Of a DNA stretch of 64,000 nucleotides, positions 20,432 to 59,694 are shown piece after piece. Below the pieces are notes generated by a model. That model saw nothing but the letters and a program-made list of their open reading frames with translations. It ran no database searches and was not told the origin of the DNA. Made by a program: the position numbers and the translations under genes. The first letter of the stretch is position 1. Every line of letters begins with the position of its first letter. This DNA is from Sabellastarte sp. h YS-2021 (taxonomy: Eukaryota > Annelida > Polychaeta > Sabellida > Sabellidae), in the NCBI GenBank assembly GCA_964017235.1, contig OZ024940.1, positions 30,746,573-30,810,572 on the forward strand. Direction: 5' to 3'.

Positions 20432-22861
20432 ATGGCCTCCCTTGATCAGAAAAGAGGAACTTGTGGCCACGTTATGGCACTTTTTGACCCGCATGCTAAA
20501 TGCGCCAGGTGCCACGAGAAAGGTTTTGGCACAGATCCATGTGTTGAATCCTGTGAAATCTGTGACAGTTTCACAAGTGAGCAATAGAAACAACTGGCCA
20601 CTCCTACTTACAGGGCAGAAAAGAACACTAAAAGAAAGAAAGCTCCCCTCCCCCCTCCCCTTGTAGACCCATCTGATGTAACTGTGTTGGGGCAGGTACA
20701 GAGTAAGGGTGACAGTAGTGATCGAGGCAAAACCCCATCCAAGTAGAAAAAGTCTTCATAACTCCACTGACCCTCAAAAGCTGGCAAAACTACTTCAAGA
20801 ACAACCTGAAATTGTCAAAACGGTTTGCCCGCCAGAAGCCATGTTCCTGGCCAGGAGCTTCTCATTACCAGTCGAGCTGGTCTAGAAAGGTGATGTGGTG
20901 TTAACTGACAGACCCTTCATCCTACCACTAAAGGCCACCAGTGCAGCAGACTACCGGTCAGATGCTGGTGAAGCCACCCAGCCTGTTGAGATTCCTGGTG
21001 CAGCTGAAGCCACCCTGCAAGTTTAGGCTCCCAGTGCAGCTGAAGCCACCCAGCCTGTTTAGGCTCCTGATGCAGCTGAAGCCACCCCGCCTATCGAGGC
21101 TCCCAGTGCAGCTGAAGGCACCCAGCCTATCGAGGCTCCCGGTGCAGCTGAAGCCACCCAACCTGTTGAGGCTCCCGGTGCAGCTGAAGGCACCCAGCCT
21201 ATCGAGGCTCCCGGTGCAGCTGAAGCCACCCAGCCTGTTGAGGCTCCTAGTGCAGCTGAAGCCACCCAGCCTGTTAAGGCTCCTGGTGCAGTTGAAGCCA
21301 CCTAGCCTGTTGAGGCTCCCAGTGCAGCCGAAGCCATCCAGCCTGTTGAAGCTCCTGGTGCAGTTGAAGCCACCCAGCCTATTGGGGCTCCCAGTGCAGC
21401 TGAAGCCACCCAGCCTTTTGAGGCTCCCGGTACATCTGCAGAGATGCAGCCTACCGGCCAGGATACTACCTACAGTGTTGCTGTGGAGAGACCCAATGTT
21501 CAGTCCCCAGGTCCAGCTAGCCAGACCCTCCCCGGTGTCAGTGGTCGATCAGAGGTCCAGCCCCCAGATCCCACTGGCCAGGCAGTTCCTGCTTTGAAGA
21601 AACAGGCCATTTTTTTCATCAGCACTACTGCTCCGTCAGAGGAACTGGTTTCTGATGATGAACAGTTGAACACTAAAGTGACAAGCTCACTCCAGCCACG
21701 TTGATGAAGAGGGTGAGATCTCTGACCTGGAGTTTGCCGGTCCGGATCGGGAAGAATTGTTAGAAGTGGACCAAGAACTTAGTGCTGAGTGGACATACAG
21801 AGAGACCATACATGGTGTGAGGTCCTTTATGGGATGGAGCCAGGTCCCAGAGTTCGACTCTGCCTCATCTTCTCAAGACCTCAACCCTATTGCCAGTGCT
21901 AGAACCCAACAGACCAGCAAGTTGTCAGTGAAAGTCCCGGTAGATGATTGGTTGTGTAGAAAGTGTGAGAAGCTTAATGTGACTATACAGGAGGGTTACC
22001 CTTCTTGTTCTTCAGAGACTGCCAGCTTGAACAGGGACCAGTTCGTCAAACCACCAAAGACTCTGAGATGGTGCAACATGTTCAGTGACAAGAAGGACCT
22101 TTCACATTCTAAAGTGCACACCTGGACTAATAAGCCGGCAAGACTGAACACTAGCTTCCCAAGGATTGCTAACCGATCTCTTCCTACATCACGTTCCTCC
22201 GTGCCAGTATCACAGGACACTTTAAGGAGGTGGGAGTGGGCTGCACGTGAACAGAGTTATATGTTCAGTCAGGCTACGGGTCTGAGCAGGTGCCTCACCA
22301 AAGTTCACAACTCCATGGTGATACAACCATGCTTCTGTCATCCAAGTTGACAGAAGCAAGGTCAAGTCCTCAAGCAAAGTACACCTAGAAGCTGACAAGT
22401 TGGATTACCTGGTCACTTTCAACCAGAGCATCAAACAAGCAATGGCCCAGACTATACAGGGCTTATCAGAGGGCGCCTTCATAAACATTGCCAACCTCAC
22501 TTTGGCTCGTAGGGTCAGTTATTTAGAGTTCATCAAGGCTGGTATCTAGCTGGATATGCTCGCGTCTCTCAGAATTGCACCCCTCCATATGAGTGCCTTA
22601 TTCTTGGACCATTGGTGTGATCTCCAAGGCAAAGGAGAAGATACGCCATCATGAGGACAAGCGTACTCCAGGTCCGGGACACAGGAAGACTCTTAACGTT
22701 ACCACCCTTACAGCCAGGGTAGCAGACAACAGCAAGACTCTGACCGGAAGTCTGGTCCACCTGTATGGAAGCAGATCAAGAGGCATGGGCAGAGATCTCA
22801 CAGGGGCAAGGCCTCTTCTCACTCACAACGACCGGCCAAGGGGCAGAAGAATTTTAAATGA
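20432..22861 (+). pseudogene. ORF1 (Gag-like) of DIRS element A, broken
   Basis: From ATG 20432 the protein starts MASLDQKRGTCGHVMALFD and shows the Cys/His motif shared by all ORF1s here: CGH, then FDPHAKCARC, DPC and CEIC. A TAG stops it at 20585. After frame changes comes an imperfect 12-residue repeat region (about 20964-21431), then the conserved block with YRETIHGVRSFMGW near 21790-21834. It closes with GQKNFK and TGA at 22859-22861. ORF1 of DIRS elements is a Gag-like protein presumed to package the RNA. The middle block recalls the DIRS-derived part of vertebrate LAP2-alpha, but that needs an alignment. Confidence 0.75.
20964..21431 (+). repeat. 36-bp coding minisatellite in ORF1 of A
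   Basis: About 13 units of 36 bases encode variants of AAEATQPVEAPG. One unit has TAG in place of CAG (CACCTAGCC near 21300). Other ORF1 copies in the window lack the array, so it expanded in this lineage. Confidence 0.88.
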
Positions 22862-23190
22862 CAATTACTGTGTAGATTGTGTGGCCGGCAAAACAGTTTG
22901 TGTACATGTGACCAGCAAAGTGAGTTACACTGTAAATTGTGTGGCCGGAAAAAAAGACTGTGCCCATGTAACCGGACAACAGAACAGTGTAGTTCCAGAG
23001 AGGGACGGAAAGAAGGACTGTTTGTTTGTAGCGGGCAAGAAAGAGACAGTAACTGTTTTACCTGTAAATTCTTGTCATGTTGCAACTCATGTTCCTTTTG
23101 CAAACGGGTATCCGCAAAAGAAAAGTGTAAATCCAGAGAGTGGTCATTGTCAAGAAATAAAATATGTCAATGATGTGTTTCCTGTGTAGA
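22862..23190 (+). pseudogene. Cys-rich readthrough segment of A
   Basis: Directly after TGA (22859-22861) the ORF1 frame reads CAATTACTG and stays open about 104 codons to 23173, with 18 cysteines in pairs such as LCRLCG, LCTC, LCPC, CFTC and SCCNSCSFCK. The ORF2 frame (+1) is also open here but poorly conserved. See G2 (50322-50610) for the best copy. Treated as the remains of a readthrough-encoded domain. Confidence 0.6.
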
Positions 23191-23246
23191 TCACTTGAGT
23201 TCAGTAATATGTGTCACAAATTTGGAAATTTTATTTTAAATGTAGC

Positions 23247-23553: not shown

Positions 23554-25579
23554 TCATGGATTCACCAGGAGAAAAGAAAGGACAAAGGCGGGGGTCATGT
23601 GGCCACCTTTGATTTGCATAAGAAATGCGCGCGCTGTCGCGATAAAGGCATTGGGGATGACCCTTGTGTGAAGGACAAACAGTGTAGTGTGTGTGATTCA
23701 TTTTCGGATGAACAGAGGGAGTTGATATCTACCCCATCTTATAGGATCAGAAAAGAGCGAAAGGCAGGTGTTTTAGTTTTGCTCAAAGAAGTGGAGGTTA
23801 TTGCTTCTATTGATTCATCTTGTTCTACTGAACCAACCTTCTCTGCTCCTCCTTCAGGGCCTTCTCAAGCTTCTACATCTAACTTTGTTACTGCAGAACA
23901 ATTCTCTTTAATGAATGATAAATGGGCTGAACAATTTGCCCGGTTTGAGGCTTTGTTAAGCAGAGGGAATGTCTTTTCCACCCCCAAGACTGCGGTGAAT
24001 CCTGGTAGTACCAAAGTTGTTGTGTCTGATTCCCCCTTTATTGCTCCGGCTACCCGGTCCGGTGGAGACCCCGGCAGTGCAGGAAGCTGTTGCTAAATCT
24101 GGGGATGCTAAGCCTAAGAAATCTAAAGACAAAAAACAGAAGAAACCGGCCAAGTCTGATAAACCGGTTCATGTTGATCGACCGGTCCCTGCTTTGAGCA
24201 CCTCCGGTCCGGAGGTTGTGACTCGGGTACCGGCCCGCAAGAAAACCATACCACCGGCTTCCTCAGCCTCCATCCCACTGGAGGATCTTCAAGCTGGTCC
24301 TATTGATAGTACCTTTGCAAGCCATCCTCTTGCCAAGCATTCAATCTTTCACCGGAACCGGATGAAATAGACTTTGATGAACCTCTTCCCGGTTCGGATG
24401 TCTCAACTGACCAATCTGATTATGATGAGGGTGAAATTTCTTCAGATACGTTGGAGCGTCCAGATCAAACAGAAGAAATGAACTATAGGGAAACTGTGAG
24501 ATCCATCCGTTCCTTCATGGGTTGGACGCACATACCTGATTTCGAGAGCGATTTAAATGAACCAGACAAGTCCAATAACCCTTGGAAGGGTAAAAACCCC
24601 AAAAGACCAGCTCGTATTTCTGTAGACATGTCACCAGATGACTGGCTTTGCCAGAAATTGGAGAGACTCAACACGGTAGTTGCTGAAGGGTATCCTTCCA
24701 GAGCACAAGATTCAGCGGGTTTGAAAAGAGATCAGTTTATTAAAGTCCCGAAGTCACAGGATCAGTGGTATCAAATATATACAATCAAACAGGATGGTCC
24801 GCATCGCCCCGAGAAACAGCTTTTCAGTTGGCATAACACCGAAGCAAAGTTAAATTCTCAGTTCCCAAGGATTACCAAGGCTTCGGCCTACCGTGCTGCT
24901 GGACCACCGTCTAGACCAATTTCACAGGAGTATCTTAGAAGGTGGAAAAGTGTGCCAGGGAAAACTCTTACATCATCAACAGTGCAGCTGGCTTCAACAG
25001 GTGCACTAGTGAATTGCAAGAGAAAATGTCTGGAAATGTAGCCATGTTGTACTCACGCCTCAATAAGGGCAAAGCCCCTAAGGAAGTGACCGGTGCCCTG
25101 AACGATTTGAAGGACTTGATGGCCTTTCATCAAAATGTCTCTGTTGCTATGGGGACTGCCTTGCAAACTTAGCGGACAGTTTATTTGTACAGTTATCAAA
25201 CCTAGTTTTGATCCGCCGTGATGCTTATCTCGAACATGTAAAACCAGGCATCAAACAGGATACATGGCTCCACCTCAGGAACGCTCCTATGTTTGGCTAT
25301 GGCCTCTTCCCTGATGCGGTCATTGCTGCAGCTGAGCAGGACATCATTAAGCATGAGGCTGACGGTACTGCTCTGAGACCCGGTCCGGGTGCTTCACAGC
25401 AGTCCAGTTGGAGAACAGCCAACAGATATCGCCCCTATGACAGGAAAGACAACAGGTCTGCCGGTACAGAACAGGAACAACAGCCCTGGCGTCAATTTAG
25501 TAGGGCTAGAGGCAGTGGACGGGGTAGAGGGTTCAACCCTCGTTTCTCTTGTTCAAAGGGATACAAATCATACAAATGA
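23554..25579 (+). pseudogene. ORF1 (Gag-like) of DIRS element B, broken
   Basis: ATG 23554 (MDSPGEKKGQRRGSCGH) fits the other ORF1 starts, but a small deletion after CGH moves the HKKCARCRDKGIGDDPC part to another frame. Further frame changes occur near 24080, 24400, 24950 and 25170. The order of motifs is as in G2: Cys/His region, a Ser/Pro-rich middle, YRETVRSIRSFMGW (24484-24525), DDWLCQKLERL, and a basic RGRG-containing tail. It ends KGYKSYK and TGA 25577-25579. Confidence 0.8.
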
Positions 25580-25930
25580 CAATTATTGCATAAACCCTCC
25601 AATACCTTGTCAAGTGTTAGTGGAGAGAAAGTTACACCAAACTGTACAACATTTAGCTCAAGACAGTTTAAGTTGTCAAAATATAGTCAAGTTCCCAGTT
25701 TTAAACACAGATCAGAAACATTCAAACCAGATTGTGTCTTGTCATGTTGTAGGTCATGTTCAATCTGCAATTTTAGAAGGGCTTCCGCAAAAGAAAGGTA
25801 GAAGACCCGTTGTGACAAAGAAAGAAATAAAGCATGTGAAAGGTGTTTCTTTTGTAAATCCATGTCTTTCTGCCCAAATTGTTCCAAATGTCCCCAATGT
25901 TGTCAAAGAGCTGGGTGTAGGGGGCATACT
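25580..25930 (+). pseudogene. Cys-rich readthrough segment of B
   Basis: The ORF1 frame continues past TGA with CAATTA and keeps cysteine clusters DCVLSCCRSCSICN (about 25731-25772) and ACERCFFCKSMSFCPNCS, then KCPQCCQRAGCRG (to about 25924). One TAG at 25799-25801 interrupts it. Both clusters align with those of G2 and F. Confidence 0.62.
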
Positions 25931-29234: not shown

Positions 29235-29520
29235 TTTATAAGCTACAATACCTACCTATTGTAACCATATGCTTTACCAGTGGTTGACCACGGGAAGCTT
29301 CCAACCGGAGTAAAGTTGAAAACTATTACCCGTGAAATTCAGATAGACGGGGCTATCCGGAGTACTGGTCACGGGGAATGCCGGTGATATAGTACCGGTG
29401 CGGGTAAACACGCACCTGCTGGCTTGGCCACGTGACCTAGGGAACCTATCAGATTGCTCCCATGAGCACTCCCTCCTTTTTGTTGGAACCAAACCCCTTG
29501 CCCAGTGTAGTCTGGAACAA
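29235..29520 (-). repeat. Right ITR of D
   Basis: Nearly identical inverted copy of 36130-36410; both contain the run GAAAACTATTACCCGTGAAA (inverted at the other end) and the CACGTGACC-containing block. Confidence 0.9.
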
Positions 29521-30186: not shown

Positions 30187-31300
30187 CGTCTAGGTGGTTC
30201 CCGGCGTCGTGCCCCCCTCTTTTTTCTTCCCTGGTACTTGGTCGGAAGGAGGCATCACCTGCTGTGCTGCGATGAAGGCGCCTAAGTGGAAGGAGCCCTC
30301 TGATTGGTCTTGTCCGGCAAGATCTCTGAGGTAGAATCTGGTGAATGTGTTGTGTGATTTCCAATGGCAGGCTTGCATGATTTGATCCATGGAAATTCCC
30401 CCATAAAAGGCCCTGGAGGCCGCAAAAGCTCTGACGTCATGGGCCTTTACACCTACAAGGTCCATGTCTGCATTGTCTGCCTTGGTGTAGGAAAATTTTA
30501 TATTGTTTTTGATCCAAGACGATATAGTGGAACACTGAATATCCTTAGAATGGCCCAATTTATAGGAGATAAACAATAACTGTCTACCCCTTCTGGAATC
30601 CTTAGTTCGGTCCAGATAACACTGAAGGGCCCTGACAGGGCAGAGTAGGACATCTGTGTTCGGAGAGTCTTGACTACACTTCAAGGCTGGAAGGACCACT
30701 GTTGAGATAGATTGCGGTCCTTCCTTTGCTAATTGATTCTTGGCAATGAAGGAGGGAGAGGGGGACAGTTGGATCTGATCCCAGTCGCCCAGGCATAAAA
30801 GTCCATCTAGTGTCCAGGCATGAATCTCAGTTCACCTTTTCCCGGAGGCTAAGGCAAGTAAGAACACTGTCTTCCATGTTAAGAATTTTAGAGCTGCTTC
30901 CTCTTGTGGTTCAAAAGGAGGCTGGTTGAGTCTCTGTAAAGCAAGGGACAGATTCCACTTAGCAATGGACCTGGAACTCTTGGGTTTATCCCTGTGAAAA
31001 CTGGCTATCAGTCTGGCAATCTCAGGGTTAGTACTAATGTTTTGCTTAGTATTCCCAAGGGTATCTGCGATGGCTGTTCTGTAGCCTTCAATGGTAGAAG
31101 GGCATCTATTTAAGTCATTGAACAGATACCAGAAGAAGTTGCAGATGTCTCCTATAGAGGGACTCCTGAAGTCCACCTGTTTTTCTGTGCACCAACGTTG
31201 GAAAACGGTCCACTTGGATGTGTAGATGGATCTTGTTGAGAGTCTCTGAGGAGCAGCAATTCTTTCTGCCACTTCTGCAGTGAAACCATGTTCGTGGAGT
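30187..31300 (-). pseudogene. Tyrosine recombinase of D, one in-frame stop
   Basis: Minus-strand frame from about 31290 (AERIAAPQRLSTRSIYTSKW) to 30190. A TGA follows FLLALASGKR near 30832, exactly after the conserved Arg of the GKRRSEIH motif; the same frame then continues to the end. The second half keeps KAHDVRAFAAS (H-x-x-R) and ACHWKSHNTFTRFYLRD, with the candidate nucleophile Tyr. A single substitution separates this YR from an open frame, which is unusual among the copies here. Confidence 0.85.
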
Positions 31301-33290
31301 GCTGAACTCTAGATACCAGGCATGGAGGTTCAGGGATGTTGGGTTGGCATGGTAATGGTTGTTCAGTGGTTGTTTTAGCAGAGTGCATGTGGGTGGTAGC
31401 TGTCTTGGAATATCCAGAGACATCTCCACCAGGTCCCAAAACCATGGTTTTGTCCGCCAGTCTGGGGCTATCAGAATTATCCTGCATGTTTGTGATTGAA
31501 GTTTTTGTACAACCTTGGGTAGCAGGGCGGTGGGAGGGAATGCGTAAGCAACCAGGTTTTCCCATGGAATGTTGAGGTCATCTACTGCCCATGCCTGAGG
31601 ATCCGGAATCGGAGAGACATATGTAGGAAGCTTTTTGTTCAGGCTGGTTGCGAACAGGTCCACTTGGGGACTCTCCCAAAGTTTGGAAATTTGTTTGAAA
31701 ACCTGTGGAGAAAGGGACCACTCTGTTGATTGGATCTGGTTCCTCCTTGAGAGGCCGTCCGCGATCACATTGAGTGAGCCCGGTACATGTCTTGCTCTGA
31801 GTGTAACATTGTTTAGGCGACACCAAGTGAGAATTCTCCACATTAGGGCACAGAGTTCTGCTAATTTTGTGCCGCCCAGTTTGTTGATATAGGCCACCAC
31901 TGAGGTGTTGTCTGAGGACTTGATTGTTCCTGTTCCTTGAAGAATTGCAGAGCCAGAAGAACCGCCTTCATTTCTAATAGGTTGATGTGAAGGTGCTTTT
32001 CTGAGAGAGACCAGAGCCCTCCTGTAGAGTTTTGACCTGAGTGAGCGCCCCAACCTGCGTTTGAGGCATCTGTAAATATTAGTTTTTCGTGTTCCTTGGG
32101 GTGGAGATGTTCTCCTTGTAGCACATTTTGAGGGTCTAACCACCATTCCCCGTGTCGTATCATCTGATGATTCCAGGGGATCAGTGTGTCCAGAGGCATC
32201 GGATATTTCCAATGAGTTTTGAGATGCCACTGAAAAGGTCTCATATGCATCCTGCCCAATTTTACAGTCTTCTCCGTTGATGCAAGCAATCCAATGGTGG
32301 ACATAAGAGTCCTTGCACTGATAACAGACTTCAAGGAGAGGCGATGGAACATCTCCTGAAGTTTGGTCCACCTGTCTTGCGTGGGCTTCACAAGAGCCAA
32401 ATCTAGTAAAAAGTGGTAACCCAGGAAGTCGAACCTCTGAGATGGTTTGAGTTCTGACTTCTTGAGGTTTACTATAAAGCCCAAATCCTTCACCAGCTTT
32501 AGTACTTTTTGTGTTTGGACCGTGCATTGTTGTTCTGAGGGGGCACGGATCAACCAGTCGTCCAGGTATTGGTGGAGTCCGATTCCTGATTGCAAAGCCA
32601 TCAGTTTTACCTCTTTGACTATACTGGTGAAAATGAGGGGGGCTGTTGCTAGCCCGAAGGGGAGGCTGGTGAACTGGTAAGTGACGCCTTTGAAATGAAA
32701 CCTGAGGTATTTTTGAGACTGGGTGTGAATTGGCACGTGTAAGTAAGCGTCTGTGAGATCTATGGATGTGACCCATTCCCCTTTCCTGAGGGAGGCACAT
32801 ATGGACTCGGGGGGTCTCCATCTTGAACTTTGGGATGGCCAGGAATTTGTTTAGTGAACTCAAGTCTATAACTGGCCTCCAGCGGTTGCCTGGTTTTGGA
32901 ACCAGGAAGAGAAGGCTGTAAAATCCCAGACTTTCTGGGGTATGAACGACTTCAACTGCGCCTTTCTGCAGCAGGTCTTGAATAGAGGTCCATAAGGCAC
33001 TTTGTTTGTCGAAGCCTGCGTAACTGCTGATTATGCAGGGTACCCTGGATAGGTTTGGGCGTTATCCGTCTCTTATGAGCCCTGTGATCAACTGGTGGGA
33101 CCCATGTTTTTCCCACTCTGGAAGGAACTGCCTTAGTCTGCCCCCCACTGGCAGATCTTTTTCTGGAATAAATACACTTTTGAACTGAACTAGCTTGGAT
33201 GTATCCCGAGACCGTACAACCAGAGTCTTCCCCCCCCCCCTTGGGGACTGTACACACGGAGTCTTTTCCCTCTCCGGTAGGGAAAACACA
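31115..33290 (-). pseudogene. ORF2 (RT, RNase H, methyltransferase-like) of D, frameshifted
   Basis: It begins with DLPVGGRLRQFLPEW near 33150, soon meets a stop, then shows RWRPVIDLSSLNKFLA (about 32880-32830) and, after a frame change, IHTQSQKYLRFHFKG, LPFGLATAPLIF and YLDDW (YLDD at 32569-32558). RNase H is FTDASNAGWGAH, and NTSVVAYINKLGG follows in a third frame. The C-terminal region reads DLFATSLNKKLPTYVSPIPD, then AYAFPPTALLPKV and IILIAPDWRTKPWFWDLVE. The end overlaps the YR frame. Confidence 0.85.
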
Positions 33291-36129: not shown

Positions 36130-36410
36130 ACTAGCAAGCTAACTTGACAAGATGGCTTCCAACAAAAAGAAGGAAGTGCTCATGGGAGCAATCTGATAGG
36201 TACCCTAGGTCACGTGGCCAAGCCAGCAGGTGTGTGTTTACCCGCACCGGTACTATATCACCGGCATTCCCCGTGACCAGTACTCCGGATAGCCCCGTCT
36301 ATCTGAATTTCACGGGTAATAGTTTTCAACTTTACTCCAGTTGGAAGCTTCCCGTGGTCAACCACCGGTAAAGCATATGGTTACAAGAGGTAGGACTATT
36401 GTAGCGTAAT
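36130..36410 (-). repeat. Left ITR of D
   Basis: Inverted copy of 29235-29520. The outer tip GTAGCGTAAT (plus strand) stops short by a few bases compared with the ICR, and element E follows immediately. Confidence 0.88.
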
Positions 36411-39873: not shown

Positions 39874-41953
39874 ATGACGCTTACTTCCGGGCAGAAGAGG
39901 GGAATTTGTGTCCAAATATTGGCATCTTTTAATCCACACAATTGGTGTGCAAGATGTCGAGAGAAGGTGGTGGGGTCGTACCCCTGTGTTCTTGGTGAAG
40001 AACCATGTAAGTTCTGTGTCATTTTAACCCCGGAACAGACACACAAGCTGGCCATTCAAAAATATAAAATTAGAAAGGAAAAGAAGGGGGAAAGTTGTTA
40101 AAGATACCGAACTAGTGGACCCTCAGGATGTTTTCATCCTTAAAGCTGTCTCACCTTTGAAGAATTGTCCCTCTTCTACCCCGGTGAGTGCTTCTGTTAA
40201 TTCTGCTATGGTTTCCCCTCCTCCAAGTGAGCTGGACAAATGTTTAGATTCTTTACAAGATGAATGGTCTGCTCGCTTCGCCAGGATTGAAGCTTTGCTC
40301 ACCATGAAACCCAAAACAGATCCCGTCTTTTCTCCAGTTAAAACACCGATAACCAAGGCTAGATCTCCGGCTGCTTCAACTGTTTCTAAGACATTCTTTT
40401 TTGTTTTGTCTGTTTTCTGACTGGTCCTGTCACGGACTTTAAAATGAAATCTGCCCTTCAGGATTTGTATGGGGAATCTGCCTTGCAACAAGAACTGGTG
40501 TTGTCATCCCCTTCTGATGCAGCCGGACCGAAGGTAGATGACAAAGAAGATATCAGTGATGGGGAATTTGTTACCGGTTTCAACACAGGAACAGATTCAA
40601 ACTGAGGACCAGTCTCACAGACAGTTCGGTGTTAGATCTTATATGGGGTAGTGAGTGGAATCGCCTCAATTTTGATGGTCGATTATTCGTCCATTTTTCC
40701 GACCAATGATCGACCCATAATCGACTTTTTTACTCCACTGTTGGCCAATATATCCTGAAACACATTCCGGGATGAAGTATATGTCAATCCGGTAAGAATA
40801 ACGGTGTTTCCGACATTTGGTACCCACCAAAAGCACTCACTTCCGGTAAATATGGCGGTAGTTATAAACAAACTCAAAATTCGTGACAAATCTCTTGATT
40901 TATTAAAAGAAAGTTTAGGAAACTGCCTAAAATATAAAAAATATATGTGGATATTGAGACACATAAAGAAGGGTAAGATTTAATCGATTTCCAGAAGTTA
41001 TCAGTGACCGAACGCGATTGTACCATGACACCGACAATTAATCGAACGTTCGTCTAATCGTCCACCCACTAATATGGGGTGGAACTTTATTCCGGACCTA
41101 GAGTCTTCTGCTACAAGTTCTTCTGACAACCCCTGTGCTGGAAGTCGCCCTCAACCAATTAGCACGGTTTCAGTTGCTTTCCCTGCTGAAGAGTGGTTCT
41201 GTAAAAAGTTTGAGGAACTAAATCGCACCACTTTGTCTGGATACCACTCCAGATCCATGGAGGCTGGAGGTTTTCAAGCTGACCAGTTCTTAAACCCCCC
41301 CTGAGAGCCAACTCCACTGGTATGACATCCACAACTTCCCAGACTCAGCTACTGCCAGACTTATACGTTCTGTTCACTACTGGTCAAGTGATGCATCCAA
41401 GTTAAACGGCCTGTATAGTCGGGTGGCCAAGGCTTCGGGAACCGATTTGGTTCATCCACCTTAATTGTAGACCTCTCCCTCAAGAGACTGTCAGAAAATG
41501 GGAAAAATCTGCCCGAGATACCTCCTATATCTGCAATCAGGCAGCAGGGTTCAACCCTTGTGTCACCAAATTGCAGGAGCAGATACAGGAGAATGTCAGG
41601 ATCCTACAGAAGGAGTTGTCCAAAGGAAAAGGCTCCTAGGCACCTAAGAAGGCCGTGGATGACCTGAGAGGTCTGTGTGCTTTTTACCAGAACATTTCCA
41701 TTTGTTTGGGCAAATCTATGCAGCACATGACTGACTCCTTGTTTATCACCCTCATGCGCAGGACCACCTGACACCAGGTTTCAAGCAAGACAATTGGTGT
41801 GCATTGTGAAATGCTCCCCTTCAATCATATGGTCTTTTCCCGGATGATGCTTGAAGGTCTTTTGGCTGTAATACAGAACCTACTAGATCAGCTAAGGGCA
41901 GGGGTGGCTTCCGAGGCTCAAAGCCTTCCCGTGGTCAAAATAAATTTAAATGA
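39874..41953 (+). pseudogene. ORF1 (Gag-like) of F, broken by mutations and a MITE
   Basis: ATG 39874 gives MTLTSGQKRGICVQILASF, then NPHNWCARCREKVVGSYPC and CKFCVILTPEQ; the H of CGH is changed. Stops and shifts follow from 40099. The conserved YMGW block is split by the hAT MITE at 40649-41071; its second half reads MGWNFIPDLESS and EEWFCKKFEELN. The end is GQNKFK and TGA at 41951-41953. Confidence 0.78.
40649..41071. mobile_element. hAT-like MITE inserted in ORF1 of F
   Basis: 423 bases, inverted relative of 836-1254, with ends TAGTGAGTGGA and, inverted, TAGTGGGTGGA and a perfect 8-bp duplication ATATGGGG (40641-40648 and 41072-41079). Removing the element and one duplicate rejoins the Y-M-G-W codons of ORF1. 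Confidence 0.95.
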
Positions 41954-42510
41954 CAATTACTGTTTAGGTGTTCCTGCTGCTCCGAATTCAGGAAAGGAGT
42001 TAAGTGTGAACAATGTTTACAGCCAGGACTTTGTACTTGCTGCTCCAAATGTAAATTTTGTTGCAAACAATTCGTTGAGGCCTCCACAAAAGACAGGAGT
42101 AAGTCCTCCTGTAAACCTGAGAAATAAAAGATGTAAATCTTGTTCACAGTCTCAGCTATTCAGTGTTTGTAACTCATACTTCTGTTATGACAAATGTTGT
42201 ACCAAGGCCAATTGCTCAGAAACCTTGGTCCCTACGTTGTCAAAAGCAGGGTTCAAATCTATCATCAAGTCAAGTGCTGCACATGGGTCAGGGTAGAAAT
42301 CCGAACAGACACACAGATTCAGTCCTCTAAAGGTGCTTGGATCCTCAAGTCATCTTGCAACTCCTGTACCTTTTGCTCCTACAGGAGGCAAGCCTATCAA
42401 GGAAGTGTCAAATGTAGGAGATGTTTCTTCTGCAAGCCCATCCGCTTCTGTGACAAGTGTAAGCAATGCACCGGCTGCTGTACCCGCTCTTCCTGTAGGG
42501 TGTAGGCTGC
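41954..42510 (+). pseudogene. Cys-rich readthrough segment of F
   Basis: Continuing the ORF1 frame after TGA: CAATTACTG, then RCSCCSEFRKGVKCEQC, LCTCCSKCKFCCKQF and SSCKPEK before TAA near 42126. Farther on, the same frame reads CNSCTFCSYRRQAYQG, KCRRCFFCKPIRFCDKC and QCTGCCTRSSCRV up to about 42505. It is the most cysteine-dense copy. Confidence 0.62.
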
Positions 42511-47200: not shown

Positions 47201-47251
47201 TAAACAAGTTTTCTCTCACGTCCGGCCAGGGGTCAGGCATCATATAAATGA
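44213..47251 (+). pseudogene. ORF1 (Gag-like) of G1, broken, LINE inside
   Basis: ATG 44213 follows AGATCATT as in other copies. MASPGQKRGLCGHFMAGFDF, YCARCRDKGKGDDPC and CQFCNSLSTDQ form the Cys/His motif. A frameshift near 44620 precedes LLAKTFTQPEPV, then the LINE. After 45713 a Thr/Pro-rich region precedes the core block (NYRETM near 46226, DDWLCRNMDSLTLTQGYPSR, then FWHCDSAKLNSAYSQIA) with stops and shifts. It ends RPARGQASYK and TGA 47249-47251. Confidence 0.8.
44789..45713 (+). mobile_element. 5'-truncated LINE with 8-bp duplication
   Basis: It encodes the C-terminal part of a non-LTR reverse transcriptase (LKLNPDKTEFILIGSQKN, SSRLDYCNSLFLSLTDFELR, ITPQLKKLHWLP) resembling the CR1/L2/Rex group, then a 3' UTR and a (GATTA)n tail. 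A direct repeat TAAACCTC lies at 44781-44788 and 45714-45721. The 203-residue open frame 44707-45318 is an accidental fusion of ORF1 and LINE. Confidence 0.9.
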
Positions 47252-47540
47252 CAATTACTGTGCTCCAACGTGCAGGTGGCTGACCCCCGGGCAAAGAGAC
47301 TGTAAAAAGTGTAAATTTGTATCAGCCCCACCTCAGACCGGAACATACCGCACAAACAACCAAAGGACTGTATACTTGTGTCAGTGTCACCAGATCGGAC
47401 CAGTGTCCAGGGAAAGACAGTAAATTGTTGTCAGTCAGTACTAAATGTAAACTCAGTTGTTGTAAATCATGCACATATTGTTCAAGGGCAGCCACAAAGA
47501 GAGGCATTGCATCAGCGGACAAACAAAAATGCAGTAGAAT
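47252..47540 (+). pseudogene. Cys-rich segment of G1, frameshifted
   Basis: TGA is followed by CAATTACTG; that frame stops after 18 codons. A downstream frame still holds KCKLSCCKSCTYCSRAATK (about 47440-47505), matching the first cluster of G2. So the segment existed and has decayed. Confidence 0.5.
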
Positions 47541-48307: not shown

Positions 48308-50321
48308 ATGTCTTCTCCCAGTCAACGACGGGGTAGTTGTGGCCATATGATGGCTGGTTATGACTCTCACAAAGTTTGTGCACGCTGTCGTGATAAGAAA
48401 AAAGGGAAGGACCCTTGTGTAGAGAAGGAAGGGGCGGATTGCCTTCACTGTAATGCCCTTACTCCAGAACAATTAGTTCATTTGTCTACCCCGTCTTACC
48501 AAATCAAGAAGGAGAAGAGGGAATCCAAGTCTTCTACACCAGCCAAGAAATCGTCTACAGGCTCCACTCTCAGTCCCACCCTTGTGGACCCGTCCTCAGT
48601 GACAGTAATGGGGGTTGTGGATGGCCAGAGCACCTCTAGGTCGCCTGGTTTGAGTGATCAGCCGGTAGAAAAGAAAAAGAAGGAGGACAAGAAGGCTTCC
48701 AGTGACAAGTCGGTTAAAGCTGACAAGTCGGTCAAATCTTCATCTCACCGACCCTCATCTTCCACTAGTACCGACCAGAAGTTAGAAGTGATGGAGCAGA
48801 AGTGGTTGGACCGGTTCAACCGGTTGGAGGCTCTCCTTCTTGCCAAATCTTTAGACCGACCTCAAGAACCTGTTTTTGCTGCTGTCAAGGTCGCACCGAC
48901 CCATGCTCCTCCTGCTAGTGTTGTCAGCACTGAACCTTTTCTGAAGCCTGCCGGCCAACCTCCTCACCGACCTCCCACTTCTACTCTACCGGCTACCGAC
49001 CCTGCTAGCTCAGCTACTGCTTCACAGGCCGGATCAGACGTATCTCCGCCTTTTCAGCAACCAGGAATTTCTAGTGTGTCCGACCAACCTACTGTTCAGA
49101 AGCATGTGTCCGGTACCTTGGATATGACTAGGAAGGACACTTCTTCAAGTGACTCGGATGTAGACCGTATAATTTCCGACCGACCTCCAGTAGATCTTTT
49201 CCCAGAAGAGGGTGAGCTCTCTGATGAACATGATGTTTCCTTCACCGACCCGGATCAATCCCTCTCAGAGGAACAATCTTACCGGGAAACAATGAGGGGC
49301 ATCCGGTCCTACATGGGGTGGGGCCACATCCCTGACATGGACTCGGGCACCAAATCATCAGACGATAACCCTTTTGCTGGGCCAAAAATGCAGACACCAG
49401 GGAAGATTTCTGTCGCTTTACCCACCGACGAGTGGTTGTGCAGCAAGCTGAGCAAACTTAATCTCACCTTAATACAAGGTTATCCCTCACGTACCACTGA
49501 GGCAGGCACTCTACAAAGGGACTAGTTTGTCCGGACGGCCAAGTCGCAGTCAAAATGGTATAATTTGCATGCTGAAGTAAAGAAGGACAGTTCTGACTCT
49601 CTTAAGTCCTGGAGTACGGGTTCTTCCCGACTGAATAGCACCTACCTGAGAATAGCCCGACAAGCTGGCATCGCCTCTAACCCACCCTTGTCTAGGCCCA
49701 TATCTCAAGAGAATCTCAGGAAGTGGGAAAGGTCGGCCAGAGTCCTCTGTAATATGCAACCAGGCTGCCGGATTTAATTGCTGCCTTCTCAAGGTCCAGC
49801 AAAATATGCAATCCCATCTCAAGACCATCCGGACAGAGTCTAAGGGCAAGTCGGCCAGTAAAGTTTCAACAGCCACTGATGAACTGCAGTTCCTCCTAGA
49901 TTTCAATTCTAGTGTGTGCCACGCAATGGCTAGGGCAATGGAACATTTGACCGACTTTGTTTTTGTAAATGTAGCAAACACCACCTTAAGGGACTCCTAC
50001 CTGTCTCATTTGAAAGCCGGGGTAAAAGCAGACACTTTAAATGCACTTAGGGCAGCCCCTCTGGATCTGGACACCCTCTTCCCTGATAAGATTGTCAAAC
50101 AGGCCAAAGAGGACATAGCAGCCTTCGACAGAAATCGTTCAGGTTCAGTGTACAAGAAGGGTAGATACCACCCTTATGAGAAACATGACAAAAAGCCGGA
50201 TAGTACAAGACAGGATAGGCCGGCTTGGAAGAATATCTTTTCTCATGGTCAACACCGTAGAGGGAAAGGAAAATACCAGTACTCCACCCGACCAGCCAAG
50301 GGCCAGCAGTCTTATAAATGA
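48308..50321 (+). pseudogene. ORF1 (Gag-like) of G2, one stop and one frameshift
   Basis: About 670 codons. Residues 1-75: MSSPSQRRGSCGHMMAGYD, SHKVCARCRDKKKGKDPC and CLHCNALTPEQ, a Cys/His-rich putative zinc site. Residues 75-300: Ser/Pro/Lys-rich, probably disordered. Then SYRETMRGIRSYMGWGHIPD and TDEWLCSKLSKLNLTLIQGY. TAG at 49523-49525 replaces the Gln codon seen in sister copies (RDQF). A frameshift near 49745 precedes AMEHLTDFVFVNVANTTL. The C-terminus is basic and Arg/Gly/Tyr-rich, ending AKGQQSYK and TGA 50319-50321. Confidence 0.9.
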
Positions 50322-50327
50322 CAGTCA
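50319..50327 (+). promoter_or_regulatory. Candidate stop-codon readthrough signal, TGA CAGTCA
   Basis: The ORF1 stop is followed by CAGTCA here and by CAATTA in A, B, F and G1. Both fit CARYYA, the six bases known to make the tobamovirus replicase stop leaky. The same frame then remains open into a Cys-rich region. Confidence 0.55.
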
Positions 50328-50610
50328 TTGTATAACACTTTTACAGGCAAGGCTGCTGGCCGGAAGCTCTGCACGGACAATAGACAATTCTTTAAATGTA
50401 AAACCTCTTGTTGTTACAAATGTTCATACTGCGCCCGGGCTTTCACAAAGGAAAGAAATAAGTCCCGGGGCAGCAGTCTGTTATCAGAAAGATTGTACAT
50501 TAAAATCTGTGAAAAATGCTTCTTGTGTCATTCCATTGTCTTGTGTTCAACCTGTAACAAGTGTCAAAAATATTGCCTCAAATCTACCTGTAGGGGCCAG
50601 ACTTCAAAAC
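50322..50610 (+). CDS. Cys-rich readthrough domain of G2
   Basis: In the ORF1 frame directly after TGA, about 95 codons without a stop carry 14 cysteines in two clusters: CKTSCCYKCSYCARAFTKE, and ICEKCFLCHSIVLCSTCN continuing KCQKYCLKSTCRG. Spacing is CCx2Cx2C and Cx2CFxCx5Cx2Cx2C, conserved in B and F, with the first cluster also in A and G1. This suggests zinc binding, perhaps nucleic-acid contact appended to Gag. There is no ATG suited to independent translation. The ORF2 frame (+1) is open across the same DNA but is conserved only from LPVGARL (about 50600). An internal overlap with no protein product remains possible. Confidence 0.6.
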
Positions 50611-52624
50611 TTTTGGCAAACTTGGCTGGATCTAGGGGCCGGTCCGAAAATAGTTCAAATCTTGAGAGAGGGTTACACCCTTCCCTTTCGGATCCAGCCA
50701 AATCTTACAAGGTCTCCGACTGTCGTAAGCCATTATGTCAATCCCCACAGGAACAGCTACCTGTTGGAGGCATTACATCAGCTTATGGACAAAAATGCAG
50801 TAGAACTGGTCTACAATCAAACATCTCTGGGGTTTTTCAATCCACTTTTTCTAGTCTCAAAACCCTACAACAAATGGAGGCCAATACTGGATCTAAGCAA
50901 ACTAAACCTTTTCCTCAAGGTGGAGAAATTCAAAATGGATACACCAGAAACCATCAGAACATCCCTCCAACAAGGGGAGTGGGTCACCTCAGTAGACTTC
51001 AAGGATGCCTACTTCCACATACCAATACAGGAACAATCCAGGAAATACCTAAGATTTCATGTCCAGGGCCGGACTTACCAATTCAAGGCATTGCCCTTTG
51101 GCCTGTCCACAGCGCCCATGGAGTTCACTGTGTTAGCAAAGGAGGTGAAACTGATGGCCATACGCAAGGGTATAAGAATCCACCAGTACCTAGACGACTG
51201 GTTGGTGAGAGCCAGATCCCAAGAAACTTGTCTCCAACACACCCAAATCCTAATCAAAATGTGCCAGGACCTAGGTTGGCTGGTGAATTTAGAGAAATCA
51301 GAGCTGGAACCCAAACAGGTCTTCGACTTTGTAGGTTACCAGTTCGATCTCAGGTCCGGCCGGGTCAGACCGACCCCGGACCGGTGGCAAAGCCTTCAGA
51401 ACAAGATACAAGTACTCCTGTTACTACTGGCATGTCCGGTCTGACAGTTCATGTCCCTGATAGGCCTGCTAACAGCCACAGAAAAACAGGTTCACCTCGG
51501 CCGACTGCACATGAGACCCATACAGTGGCATCTCAAAAACAATTGGAGGGTACCAGAATCGGAGGGTGGAAAAGATTATAACTCTACCAAGGTCCCTGCA
51601 CCCTCACTTACAATGGTGGCTAGAGGAAGACAATGTGCTTCAAGGTCAACCATTACACCCAGTAAGACATGCTCTGCAAATATTTACAGACGCATCAAAA
51701 GAAGGGTGGGGCGCTGACTTAAACGAGTTCACTGCAAGAGGGTCCTGGTTGGTGCCGGAAAGCAAGCTGCACATAAACTATCTGGAACTCAAAGCAGTGT
51801 TTCTAGCCCTCAAAGAGTTCCAAGACCTCTGTGTAGACAAAATAGTTCTAGTGGCAACCGACAATACTACAGTGGTAGCTTACATAAACAAGGAAGGAGG
51901 CATGAGGTCAGGCCCACTGTGTGCCCTACTGTGGAGAATCTTGACCTGGTGTTCCCAGCGACAAGTGACTCTAAAAGCCCGACACATCCCAGGCCATTTA
52001 AATGTGATAGCAGACAAACTATCCAGGCTGGGTCAGACCATCCAAACAGAGTGGTCCCTCCTTCCGGAAGTTTTTCAACAAATATGCAACCAATGGCACC
52101 TCTCTCAAATAGATCTGTTTGTCACGAGGTTCAACCACAAATTACCTCAGTTTGTCTCTCCAGTACCGGACTCCCTGGCTGTAGCAGTGGATGCACTTAC
52201 TCTGCCATGGGAGGACCTGGATGCATACGCCTTCCCACCGACCGCCATATTGGGCAAAGTGGTGGAGAAGCTACTGGACTCCCCGTGCAAGAGACTCATT
52301 CTGATTGCCCCGGGGTGGCCCAACATGCCTTGGTTTTGGGACTTGGTGAACATGTCCAGCCAGGTCCCCCTCAGCCTGCCCAACCTGCCCAGTCTGCTAA
52401 CACAGCCCTTCAATCAGATCCCTCACAGAAATCTGACAAATCTAAATCTCCATGCCTGGCTCCTAGAGCCACAAAAATCAAAGAACAGGGTTTCTCTGAG
52501 GCAGTGGCAGCAAGAATTGAGGCTCCTCAAAGAAGATCAACCAGATCAGTCTATGAGGCAAAGTGGACCATTTTTACAAAGTGGTGCGTCACTAATCAGG
52601 TGGACTTTAGGTCACCACCTATAA
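50600..52624 (+). pseudogene. ORF2 (RT, RNase H, methyltransferase-like) of G2
   Basis: In the +1 frame relative to ORF1. Conserved sequence begins LPVGARLQNFWQTWLDLG and ILREGYTLPFRI. RT: NKWRPILDLSKLNLFLK, SVDFKDAYFHIPI, LPFGLSTAPMEF, YLDD at 51187-51198, FDFVGYQFDLRSGRVRP. TGA at 51442-51444 and a frameshift near 51565 interrupt it. RNase H: FTDASKEGWGADL, LELKAVFLALKEF, ATDNTTVVAYINKEGG, RHIPGHLNVIADKLSR. Last comes the region usually assigned to a DAM-like methyltransferase: IDLFVTRFNHKLPQFVSPVP, AYAFPPTAILGKVVEKL, LILIAPGWPNMPWFWDLV. Its end is double-coded with YR. Confidence 0.9.
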
Positions 52625-55523: not shown

Positions 55524-57681
55524 ATGTCTTCTCACCAGTATAACAAAGACAAACCTCGTGCAGCAAAATGTAACCATTTCTGCCACCCATTTGATCATCA
55601 CAACTACTGTCCTACCTGCAGAGAGGCAGGTAAAGGCGACGATCTGTGTGTCACTCTATTATCCCCCTGTTCTATTTGCTCGTCTTTTACTGATGAACAA
55701 CTAGCAAAAATCACCCACAGGAAACGCTACTCCAAGAAATCTGATAAAAATAAGGCAGAAGACATAGATTCTGAACTATTGGGGGACAACTCTTCAGAAT
55801 CTTATGGGGGGTCGCATGCTGAGTTAGAAGTGGCTGCGAATCGTCTCTTCACATCCCCGCCTCGCCCTCAACCTCTTTCATTCGAGGAATTATCTGTGCG
55901 AACTCCAGCTCGTACTGTCCCGCCTACACCAGGTACGGCCTTACAAGAAAAAGTGCAAGCTAACCTCGAAAGATCCTTGTCTTCTCGCCTTGACATACAA
56001 ATGGATCAGAAAATGGGGGCTTTTCAGGCTAGTATGTTGGAGGCGTTTAATAGTCTTCTTGAAGATTTTCAGAAATCTTTACAAAAACAAGGGGAGGTGG
56101 CTCAGACCTCTTCTGCTTCTAAAACGAATGCATCCTCCAAAGATATAGCCAAACCCTCGCAGTCCAGTAGTGTTCTCGAGTCCATGGAGTTCGAGTATGG
56201 TCCAGATCTTCCGCCTCGACTCGTATTCCAGTCGCCTCAAAGACGACTCGGCGCGGGTTCGTAGTTCTGGCAAGGAACCCTCGAAGGTTGCCTCGACCAA
56301 ACCAAAACAACCTACACAGTCTTCTAAATATCAGGTCGTGGATCCGAGCTCTGCCTCAGACCACTACTCAGACTACTCAGTTGACCCTCAGCCGGCCCCT
56401 AGGCCCAAAAAGCACTCTGATAAATCAAAACACAAGTCAAGGGCCAGATATTTACCATCATCTTCAGACGAGGATCTGTCCCCTGAACGTAGACATAGGT
56501 CTCCTAAGCCCTCTGGGAAGTCTTACACTGATCAGGACCACCCCCAACATGACCCTGACCCTCCTTACTACAGGGAAGTAGCTTTGTCTGACATCCCATC
56601 TCAATATGCTGAGGAGGTGGATACGTTTCGACGCATCCTTAAACTGCCGGATCCTAGGGAATCCCTCCCTAGATCTTCCACAGCGGTCATGGGCCTTGAT
56701 GACGAGAAAGGCAGGCAAGAACTTAGGCCAAGAGATCCTTCCTCCATGTTACCTCTCAATTCGGTCATCAAAGATGCCTTTAATAAATTCGATCAGGACT
56801 TCCAGGCAGCAAATTTACCTGAGGGCAAGTACATCAGACCTCCTCCCTCCACTGCCAAGTGGTACAAGGTAGGCCAGCCTTGTTATGAGGAGAAAATACA
56901 AGAGCTGAACACTGACTTTACCAAGATTTGTTTTTCTCTTAAACCATCTGGGGCTCCTATGGGCAAGGTCCCTATGCCAGTTCTTAAAGAACTTGAACAT
57001 CAGGCAAGACAGAATATTTCCACTCTTAACTTCGCCACCACTTTTGCCAAAACCTCCTCTTCCTGTAATGCCACTCTGGAGAGGTGTCAGCATAGCTTAA
57101 AAGCGACCTCCAAAAAGGTCAAGTCTCAAATCAGGAAAGGTGCCGACCCTGACAAAGCAGCAAAACGTGGATATGACGAATCCTGTGAGTATTTGGATTT
57201 GTGGAATAAAACCGTCCTAATCCAACACAGGGCCTTAACTTGCCTTAGTAAATCTTTGGCCCATATTCTCCAGAGAGAACTGTACTCTATGGGCAATTTG
57301 GTCTTACTTAGGCGCGAAGCTGAAATGACTCTATTACAACCCCACTTGGGAGAAACCAGGCGCCAAGAACTCAGGAATGCGTCCTTCTGGCCGCCATCCT
57401 TGTTTAAATCTCAGCTGGTAAAGGAAGGCGAGGACTTCCTCCTTAAAAAAGGCACCTCAAAAGATTCTCAGGGTTTCGGGGTCCCAACAAGAAAAGAAGC
57501 TCCTACAATAAACGCCCCTATGGGGGCAATTCCTCTCAAAGCAGTAACCAATCCTTTCCCTCTAACAGGGGAAAACAAAACTTCAGAGGCTCCACGGGTT
57601 GTTTTCGACCCCACAATAGGGGAAGAGGGCGTGGAAACCCCCCTTCCCAATGACTCCTCCAAAGCCTCAGTCCACCAGTAG
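55524..57681 (+). pseudogene. ORF1 (Gag-like) of H, one frameshift
   Basis: About 715 codons. It starts MSSHQYNKDKPRAAKCNHF, then FDHHNYCPTCREAGKGDDLC and CSICSSFTDEQ, a variant of the Cys/His motif. A Ser-rich middle has a helix (KMGAFQASMLEAFNSLLEDF). A single shift lies near 56240, after which the frame is open to TAG 57679-57681. The second half includes YYREVALSDIPSQYAEEVD and ELYSMGNLVLLRREAEMTLL, the block shared with D. It differs strongly from family 1 ORF1 outside these blocks. The stop TAG overlaps the first conserved codons of ORF2, and no Cys-rich extension exists. Confidence 0.88.
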
Positions 57682-59694
57682 GAGGTCGCCTCCATTTCAG
57701 CAGAGACTGGCAAACAAGCAATTGTTCATCCAACGTGTTAAACATTATCACCAATGGCTACATTCTGCCATTCCGCTCAAAACCAAACTTGATCAGATTT
57801 CCTCTGATAATATCAGAATACAAGGCCCTTCCAAAAGACCAAGCCTTAGCCGATTGTATCCAGTCTCTACTGTCAAAGAACGCCATTGAAAGGGTAGAAA
57901 ATGTAAAATCTCTCTGGTTTTACAGTCGCCTGTTTCTAGTACCCAAGCCTCACCAAAGGTGGAGGCCAGTTATAGACCTAAGCAGGTTCAATACTTTTCT
58001 ACACATAGAGAAGTTCAAGATGGAAACTCCAGAATCCATCAGGACCTCCCTGATTCCAGGGGAATGGGTAATGTCGATAGACCTGTCGGACGCTTACCTT
58101 CACTTCCCCGTCCATCCTCACTCAGTGAAATACCTAATATTTTGCCACAGGTCTCAGGTGTTCCAGTTCACCTCCCTACCTTTCGGTCTAGCCACAGCCT
58201 CCCAGGTCTTTACCATGATCGTAAAGGAGGTGAAGCTCATGGCCCTCTCCAAAGGTCTCAGACTCCACCAATACCTCGACGACTGGCTGATCAGGTCTCA
58301 ATCCCGGGAGGAAGCCCTAGTGAACACTCAGGCAGTGGTGGATCTAACCCAGTCCTTGGGATGGATCATCAATCAACAAAAATCAGAACTTAATCCCACT
58401 CGTGTTTTCGTTCGTGGGTTACGAGTACCACCTAGATTCAGCCCTTGTAAAACCCACTCAAGAGAGATGGCTCAAACTTCAGGATTTTATCCTGCAACTC
58501 AAGTCAAAACATGTTGTGACTGCAAGATGTTTGATGTCTCTAATTGGGTTGCTAGCCTCAACGGAAAAAATGGTCCCGGAGGGACGACTTCACATGAGGC
58601 CCTTTCAGTTTCACCTCAAGGAGCACTGGAAATTTCCTCAACCACTGGACAGACTCCTTCCTTGGACAGAAGCCATCTCTGCACACCTAGACTGGTGGCA
58701 GAACCCTGCAAACATGATGAAAGGCTCAGACCTTCATCCCAAAGACCACAGTATCCAACTCTTTACAGACGCCTCAAACGAAGGTTGGGGCGCTCACTTA
58801 GAACCAAGTTCTACACAAGGTCTGTGGTCTCCCCAGGAAAAAGGCCTTCAAATAAACGTCCTAGAATTGAAAGCTGTCTTTCTGGCCCTGAGACACTTCA
58901 AAGACCAGTGCCAGGACCAAACAGTGCTAGTTGCAACGGACAACTCAACTGTGGTTGCTTACATAAACAAACAAGGGGGGAACACACTCAGCGGAGATGT
59001 GTACACTCCTGTGGAGAATCATGACCTGGTGCCATCGTTTTCACATAATATTGAAAGCCAGGCACATTCCAGGGTGCCTGAATGTGATGGCCGACCTACT
59101 TTCCAGGTCAAATCAGGTACAGTGGACCGAATGGTCACTACATCCACAGGTGTTCAAACAGATCTCCCAAAAGTGGTTCACTCCCCACGTGGACCTATTT
59201 GCTTGAACCACAAGCTCCCTCTGTACGTGTCTCCTATCCCAGACCCAAAGGCCTGGGACAGAGATGCTCTAAACATAGACTGGACGGGTCTCACGGCCTA
59301 TGCTTACTGTCCAACTGCTCTCCTTCACAGGGTGATCCAAAAAATCAGACAATGCAATTGTCTGATCATACTAATAGCCCCAGGCTGGCCAGGGATGCCC
59401 TGGTTTTGGGACCTAGTGCAGCTCTCAACAGAGATCCCACTACAACTCCCGGTGTCGACAACACTCCTCAAGCAGTCCCACAATTACGTGTTCCACAGGA
59501 ACCCGCAGCACCTCAACCTCCACGCCTGGTGTCTAGGAGTGGACAACTCCAAGAACAAGGCTTCTCTGTGGAAGTGGCAGAGAGAATTGCTGCACCTCAG
59601 CAGTCATCAACAAGGACCATCTACAAATCAAAGTGGGCCCTATTTGAAAAATGGTGCAGAGAAAATTCGGTGGATTTCTCCACTCCATCTGTGA
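57678..59694 (+). pseudogene. ORF2 (RT, RNase H, methyltransferase-like) of H, frameshifted
   Basis: In the -1 frame relative to ORF1; conserved sequence begins VGGRLHFSRDWQTSN at 57678. RT: RWRPVIDLSRFNTFLHIEKF, SIDLSDAYLHFPV, LPFGLATASQVF, YLDD at 58272-58283. A 1-base frameshift near 58400 leads to FVGYEYHLDSALVKP, then RNase H FTDASNEGWGAHL, LELKAVFLALRHF and ATDNSTVVAYINKQGG. Shifts near 58985 and 59205 follow, then the methyltransferase-like region AYAYCPTALLHRV and IILIAPGWPGMPWFWDLVQ, and a conserved C-terminus NKASLWKWQRELLHL that overlaps YR. Confidence 0.88.

Follow-up and report, generated by a model that had tools for sequence, protein, structure and literature searches.

DIRS1-like retrotransposons carry three ORFs, for Gag, a tyrosine recombinase (YR) and a reverse transcriptase with RNase H (RT/RH). 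The YR ORF can overlap pol, with its catalytic part in the non-overlapping 3′ end, and the overlap is long in half of the 28 elements of Piednoel et al. 2011 (PMC3266345). The passages of that paper that deal with these ORFs do not describe how the YR is translated, nor do they mention a frame shared by Gag and YR, a leaky stop or a Cys-rich YR start. As far as the cited passages go, type I readthrough of the tobamovirus kind (UAG CARYYA) extends a replicase or coat protein, and natural CARYYA cases generally use UAG (PMC3542737, PMC4132726). A reporter built on the mammalian OPRL1 context showed about 15% readthrough for UGA followed by CARYYA, with each of the six bases contributing (PMC4132726). 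Gammaretroviruses (type III) read through the Gag stop, a UAG-G with a pseudoknot, to make a minor Gag-enzyme fusion (PMC3542737). Among retrotransposons, Tca2 of Candida albicans has a UGA between gag and the next ORF, although that ORF is pol and not YR, and in the experiments cited yeast showed no readthrough directed by the flanking sequence (PMC2194720).

Here we analysed a 64,000-nucleotide stretch of the Sabellastarte sp. h YS-2021 genome (contig OZ024940.1), hereafter the window, together with further copies from the same genome. The original prediction, made from the letters of the window, was that a leaky stop extends a DIRS Gag protein by a Cys-rich segment. Readthrough is supported by selection and by CARYYA, but a short Cys-rich Gag tail was rejected: the frame spans about 1070 codons and takes in a YR, and the product would be a recombinase fusion. 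We put the probability that type I UGA readthrough makes a minor Gag-Cys-YR fusion in this DIRS1-like group at roughly 0.8, and it appears to be a well-supported new form of stop-codon readthrough. As the original prediction supposed, we found no described readthrough Gag of DIRS elements in the open-access literature; an earlier mention is possible, most subscription journals being outside the scope of the search. The relevant passages of PMC3266345, PMC9210276, PMC5633606, PMC4157794 and PMC8226300 do not describe readthrough in DIRS, and the words DIRS and tyrosine recombinase are absent from the accessible part of PMC5009743. A scan of viral contigs confirmed no relative.

Stop context at the end of Gag

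Five copies in the window, A, B, F, G1 and G2, end Gag with AAA-TGA-CARYYA (coordinates are those of the window, on the plus strand unless stated otherwise). The five stops of the original prediction were all found again, at 22859 (A), 25577 (B), 41951 (F), 47249 (G1) and 50319 (G2), behind Gag C-termini that follow the pattern it gave (GQKNFK, GYKSYK, GQNKFK, GQASYK and GQQSYK, respectively). The next hexamer fits CARYYA in every copy, being CAATTA in four and CAGTCA in G2, whose substitutions stay within the consensus as claimed. In G2, the C-terminal part of Gag occupies 49806–50318 in the frame that ends at the putative leaky stop, gag being broken upstream; the TGA (50319–50321, AAA before it) and CAGTCA (50322–50327) follow. 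The younger copy L009 has the Gag frame open for at least 497 codons before the TGA, up to the edge of the sequence piece. As a string, TGACARYYA is not enriched in the window (8 matches on both strands vs 6.05 ± 2.5 in shuffles), and the motif as a rare string was rejected; its position, not its count, is the signal.

The 1.79-Gb genome gave 15,275 first-look candidates for a post-TGA frame, of which 150 were scored and about 67 (hand count) have an open frame of at least 1000 codons. We sampled 100 loci from the same genome, L001 being G2 and L031 being F. L001–L028 and eight further loci were found by the post-TGA frame, whereas L031–L060 and 32 further loci were found by RT alone and then chosen to vary in identity and in the length of the frame, irrespective of the stop; the remaining two, L029 and L030, are downstream pieces. 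For an unbiased count, the 12-base core was masked and junctions were placed by their flanks alone. The flank alignment spans the core in 91 of the 100 loci, ungapped in 86; the core is gapped in five loci (L003, L039, L042, L053 and L082), and nine, L029 and L030 among them, have no spanning alignment. Conservation of TGA-CARYYA in more copies, which the original prediction had put forward as a check, holds in nearly all ungapped loci: the hexamer directly follows the stop position in 86/86, as in type I sites, with TGA in 85/86 and AAA as the preceding codon in 84/86. The use of TGA fits the OPRL1-context reporter, in which UGA was similar to UAG and UAA far lower (PMC4132726). The sole ungapped locus without TGA is L037. 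Single copies have lost the stop or carry a sense codon in its place, namely L003 (deletion), L037 (TGG) and two public proteins that run from Gag into the Cys-rich segment, P0057 (Arg) and P0070 (Trp).

The core is also kept at 22 divergent junctions (<85% flank identity), where positions were chosen by motif score or exact motif. TGA with CARYYA occurs in 22/22 and AAA in 21/22, positions −3 to +8 hold 1.4–2.0 bits and most flanking columns far less, and the hexamer variants (CAATTA, CAGTCA, CAATCA, CAACTA and CAGTTA) all lie inside CARYYA. Only 26% of Leu and Ser codons elsewhere in the same frames have the YYA form, so the invariant final A of the hexamer is not due to amino acids alone.

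Two features of these junctions bear on a route in which ribosomes terminate at the UGA and reinitiate at codon three behind it, an [ACU]UG in many families, to make a separate Cys-YR protein. The third codon is CTG or TTG in 16/22, and +11 is G in 20/22 (1.47 bits, conserved like the weakest core column), a conservation for which readthrough gives no explanation; in L076, L077 and L079 the third codon is ATG. However, the start codon that a restart needs at or just after the stop is lacking at the 22 junctions: the 16 are near-cognate, and the other six, several B-clade loci among them, have TCG, CAG, ATT or TTA with the hexamer kept. L008 has TTA as well, and a restart gives no reason for an invariant CAR YYA. 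We consider this route highly improbable.

Compared with tobamovirus sites, the hexamer is the same, here mostly as the exact CAATTA, but the stop is UGA and the predicted product a retrotransposon Gag-recombinase fusion. Folding without pseudoknots found no stable 3′ RNA structure in 10 sequences (z-scores −0.74 to 1.38), as expected for type I sites. The gammaretroviral combination of UAG-G and a stable 3′ structure is not seen, the context being UGA-C. Of the bases and residues before the stop, two adenines have been tied to readthrough in yeast, a link that is disputed, and the same source passage reports better termination after positively charged residues (PMC9841425); the Lys before this Gag stop is positively charged and therefore counts against readthrough.

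The reading frame behind the stop

In G2, a Cys-rich segment follows the stop in the Gag frame (f0) at 50322–50591 and ends where RT begins in f1, the +1 frame of Gag. The RT part of pol occupies 50590–51444 in f1, antiphase to the YR ORF, and the remaining open f0 (50322–51578) is the 5′ part of that ORF, with a TAA at 51579 in this decayed copy. The young copy L009, completed by L029, has f0 open for 1070 codons after the TGA, to the end of the YR, in the order Cys-rich segment, long stretch antiphase to pol, YR. Public translations of 1063–1072 aa have the same post-TGA layout ending in a recombinase. Phage_integrase was matched in 4/4 public post-TGA ORFs with E-values of 1.8e-5 to 0.0059, all below the Pfam cut-off (best 25.0 vs 27.1 bits); PF00589 is precomputed on P0066 and P0111, and the R, HxxR and Y residues were located by eye in f0 of L029. 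The elements have a tyrosine recombinase ORF and, in pol, RT and RNase H domains (L009: RVT_1 84 bits, cut-off 29.6; RVT_3 28.2 bits, cut-off 21.6), as DIRS1-like elements do. What is new, as read from the sequence, is that the YR frame is that of Gag and appears to begin directly at the stop of Gag, its first part being a conserved Cys-rich segment.

The 104 codons after the TGA hold 18 cysteines in A, 13 in B, 13 in F, 5 in G1 and 14 in G2. A Cys-rich segment in the Gag frame with up to 18 cysteines, as predicted, is thus present, but it is not an end in itself, given that the frame continues into the YR ORF. TGA CAATTA and the Cys-rich f0 segment lie at 22859–23197 in A, with no RT found behind, and at 25577–25919 in B, with one TAG inside and RT from 25917. 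In F the f0 region is longer and has stops inside (41951–42496, up to RT at 42495). In G1 (47249–47499) the Cys piece lies in another frame at 47443–47499, which bears out the frameshift noted earlier for this copy.

Coding-frame analyses used 18 representatives picked from copies without f0 stops in the Cys-rich segment. Differences by f0 codon position were 0.295, 0.254 and 0.376 in the Cys core, highest at position 3, and 0.500, 0.236 and 0.249 in RT, where f0 position 1 is f1 position 3. The substitution peak moves from the third position of f0 to that of f1, and the coding frame therefore switches at the RT start. Summed within-clade pairs, which are not independent, gave dN/dS of 0.49 (f0), 0.92 (f1) and 0.93 (f2) in the Cys-rich segment, and of 1.54 (f0), 0.12 (f1) and 2.39 (f2) in the first 39 RT codons. 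The original prediction had proposed dN/dS of the frame after the TGA as a check, with a neutral Cys-rich frame beside a constrained +1 frame as the outcome that would speak against it; before RT, purifying selection is seen in f0 and not in the +1 frame. Coding selection behind the stop is thus present, as in type I readthrough, although its phase signature is absent in alignment columns 1–10 just after the TGA and the B clade is weak (f0 0.66 vs f1 0.78 in the Cys-rich segment).

By openness, f0 and f1 cannot be told apart in the Cys-rich segment: the 68 junction loci together have 13 stops in f0, 16 in f1 and 603 in f2, with f0 stop-free in 61/68. Frameshifting is common in retroelements, and the Gag and pol frames overlap here in many copies, as an entry into f0 by a shift near the junction, leaving the UGA undecoded, would have it. 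A shift would be superfluous, however, Gag itself being in f0; f2 is closed, with 6–15 stops in the Cys-rich segment of 18/18 representatives, and f1 has two stops there in each of four L51-clade representatives. We regard such an entry as very improbable.

The Cys-rich segment of G2 has no Pfam or PDB match, and its AlphaFold model (pLDDT 49.6) is unusable. The segment is probably metal-binding and might bind nucleic acid. Pat1-like YR retrotransposons with a zinc-finger Gag likewise tie a Cys-bearing segment to Gag, but there, according to the passage on these elements, it lies within Gag (PMC4157794), whereas here it lies behind the stop and is without a Pfam match. In L060, a natural indel in the segment has fused the frames of the Cys part and of RT, which form a single open frame behind the TGA. 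In P0003, P0007 and other public proteins with PF00078, the Cys frame is joined to RT inside RT, perhaps through natural indels or gene-model artefacts.

Further downstream, f0 is open across pol. We counted stops wherever the pol stretch has a length of ≥100 codons, which holds for 58 of the 87 loci in which an RT start was found; the 29 shorter stretches were left out, 20 of them short pieces among the loci found by RT. Over pol, f0 holds 133 stops vs 969 expected from synonymous shuffles. Zero f0 stops were found in 38/58 loci, and 48/58 lie below the smallest of 200 shuffles. In the same loci f2 is not depleted (1662 vs 1375 expected). Eight copies picked for open f0 agree with this count (shuffle means 11.8–26.1 stops, never <5). 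At least six f0 stops occur in 8/58 loci (L005, L035, L061, L062, L064, L065, L067 and L073), perhaps through compensating indels or older decay. Shuffle controls in the window were kept to real pol frames, those of G3 and of G2 from 50590; C, 51919 and 27498 are other frames and were left out. In the contrast element G3, which has no junction, f0 has 19 stops vs 24.7 expected (P 0.07).

These counts weigh on a reading of the stop context and the open frame as unselected relics of inheritance or chance. All DNA is from one genome, so the clades share ancestry, and TGACARYYA is common by chance. Against this, the flanks diverge and the core stays, and f0 has a deficit of stops over pol; we take this reading to be extremely improbable.

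Candidate routes into the recombinase frame

The clades do not share any one f0 AUG position. Counted from the RT start, the first f0 ATG is at codon 11, 95, 105, 115 or 212–213 in different copies, and f0 ATGs within the Cys-rich segment are scattered, in 5/18 representatives. The 14 loci surveyed for ATGs were picked for open f0, and 5/14 of their stretches are short (11–55 codons; L040 P 0.09). Surveyed stretches end at the first ATG and are hence stop-free by construction, so that only the expected counts inform: L045, L057 and L059 are without an f0 ATG for 212–213 codons after the RT start, with 7.7–9.0 stops expected. All in all, the point at which ribosomes get into f0 seems to lie upstream of pol, where the Gag stop is the sole open path in this frame.

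A separate short mRNA, made by an internal promoter or splicing, could instead supply the YR from a downstream AUG, the TGA just ending Gag. An f0 ATG at codon 95 after the RT start recurs in several clades (L009, L019, L080, L040 and L042), TATAAA overlaps the stop in many YK* families, and promoter activity has been reported at the gag-UGA-pol junction of Tca2 in the cited passage (PMC2194720). The NKK* and NFK* families are without TATAAA, however, and a TATA box over the stop was rejected as a general feature. Many copies, moreover, have their first f0 ATG only downstream of the parts that show the depletion of f0 stops and the selection on the Cys-rich segment, and we judge this route, too, to be highly improbable.

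We favour readthrough because the stop and hexamer are near-invariant, Gag and YR share a frame, the Cys-rich segment is under selection, f0 is open over pol and there is no common start codon. On this reading, Gag would end at a leaky UGA in a tobamovirus-type context, AAA UGA CAR YYA, at which most ribosomes would stop and release Gag. A minority, at a rate that we infer to be low, would insert an amino acid at the UGA and translate, still in the same frame, the Cys-rich segment, several hundred codons that lie antiphase to pol and finally the tyrosine recombinase, so that a low amount of Gag-Cys-YR fusion results. The fusion would carry the YR into the Gag particle. The likeness to gammaretroviral Gag-Pol is in the logic of a minor Gag-enzyme fusion; here the context is UGA-CARYYA, the enzyme would be a tyrosine recombinase and pol lies in another frame.

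If true, a leaky Gag stop would account for the frame of the YR and its lack of a start codon, for the extent to which it overlaps pol and for a low YR:Gag ratio; it would further predict that the YR is delivered by Gag fusion, like retroviral Pol. Readthrough at UGA-CARYYA would thereby gain an abundant natural example, with a Cys-rich segment behind the stop and not inside Gag.

Access to pol and neighbouring elements

Constraint in f1 starts at the RT start. Between the TGA and RT, f1 is open in 14/18 representatives, an openness that falls short of significance overall (combined p 0.079 if one L51 representative is included, 0.041 if none is). Two f1 stops precede RT in each of the four L51-clade representatives, only one of which has an ATG in that part, and this bars a reading of pol in f1 from gag in these copies. 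Pol-frame stops between the Gag stop and RT were seen in L045, L051, L052 and L055, and also in L053 and L057. Pol may be reached from a start within gag or by a +1 shift, either at the stop or where the Cys-rich segment meets RT; no slippery site is obvious by eye at that boundary across clades. We hold it doubtful that one leaky stop feeds two enzymes, with in-frame readthrough giving Gag-Cys-YR and a +1 shift at the UGA or at the end of the Cys-rich segment giving a Gag-linked Pol. The points noted with this idea are the switch of constraint from f0 to f1 at the RT start, the lack of purifying selection in f1 before RT and the L51 f1 stops.

Other elements in the window differ. G3 (57678–59024, plus strand) has a DIRS pol with f0 against it full of stops, and over the 300 codons that precede RT it shows neither a Cys-rich segment nor TGA-CARYYA, so that not every DIRS element in the window has this architecture. 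The DIRS element C (31115–33148, minus strand) has a long ORF of 582 aa antiphase to its RT, but its YR frame would have to be entered in some other way, as a Gag-like C-terminus terminates in a different frame. Around this element, at 29251–29488 and 36157–36394, lie two inverted repeat arms, each 238 nt long and 97% complementary, that are perhaps its terminal repeats. Upstream of copy A, a tandem array at 20969–21438 consists of 13.1 copies of a 36-nt unit with 85% matches and encodes a 12-residue Leu/Pro-rich repeat in one frame (ORF 20941–21597).
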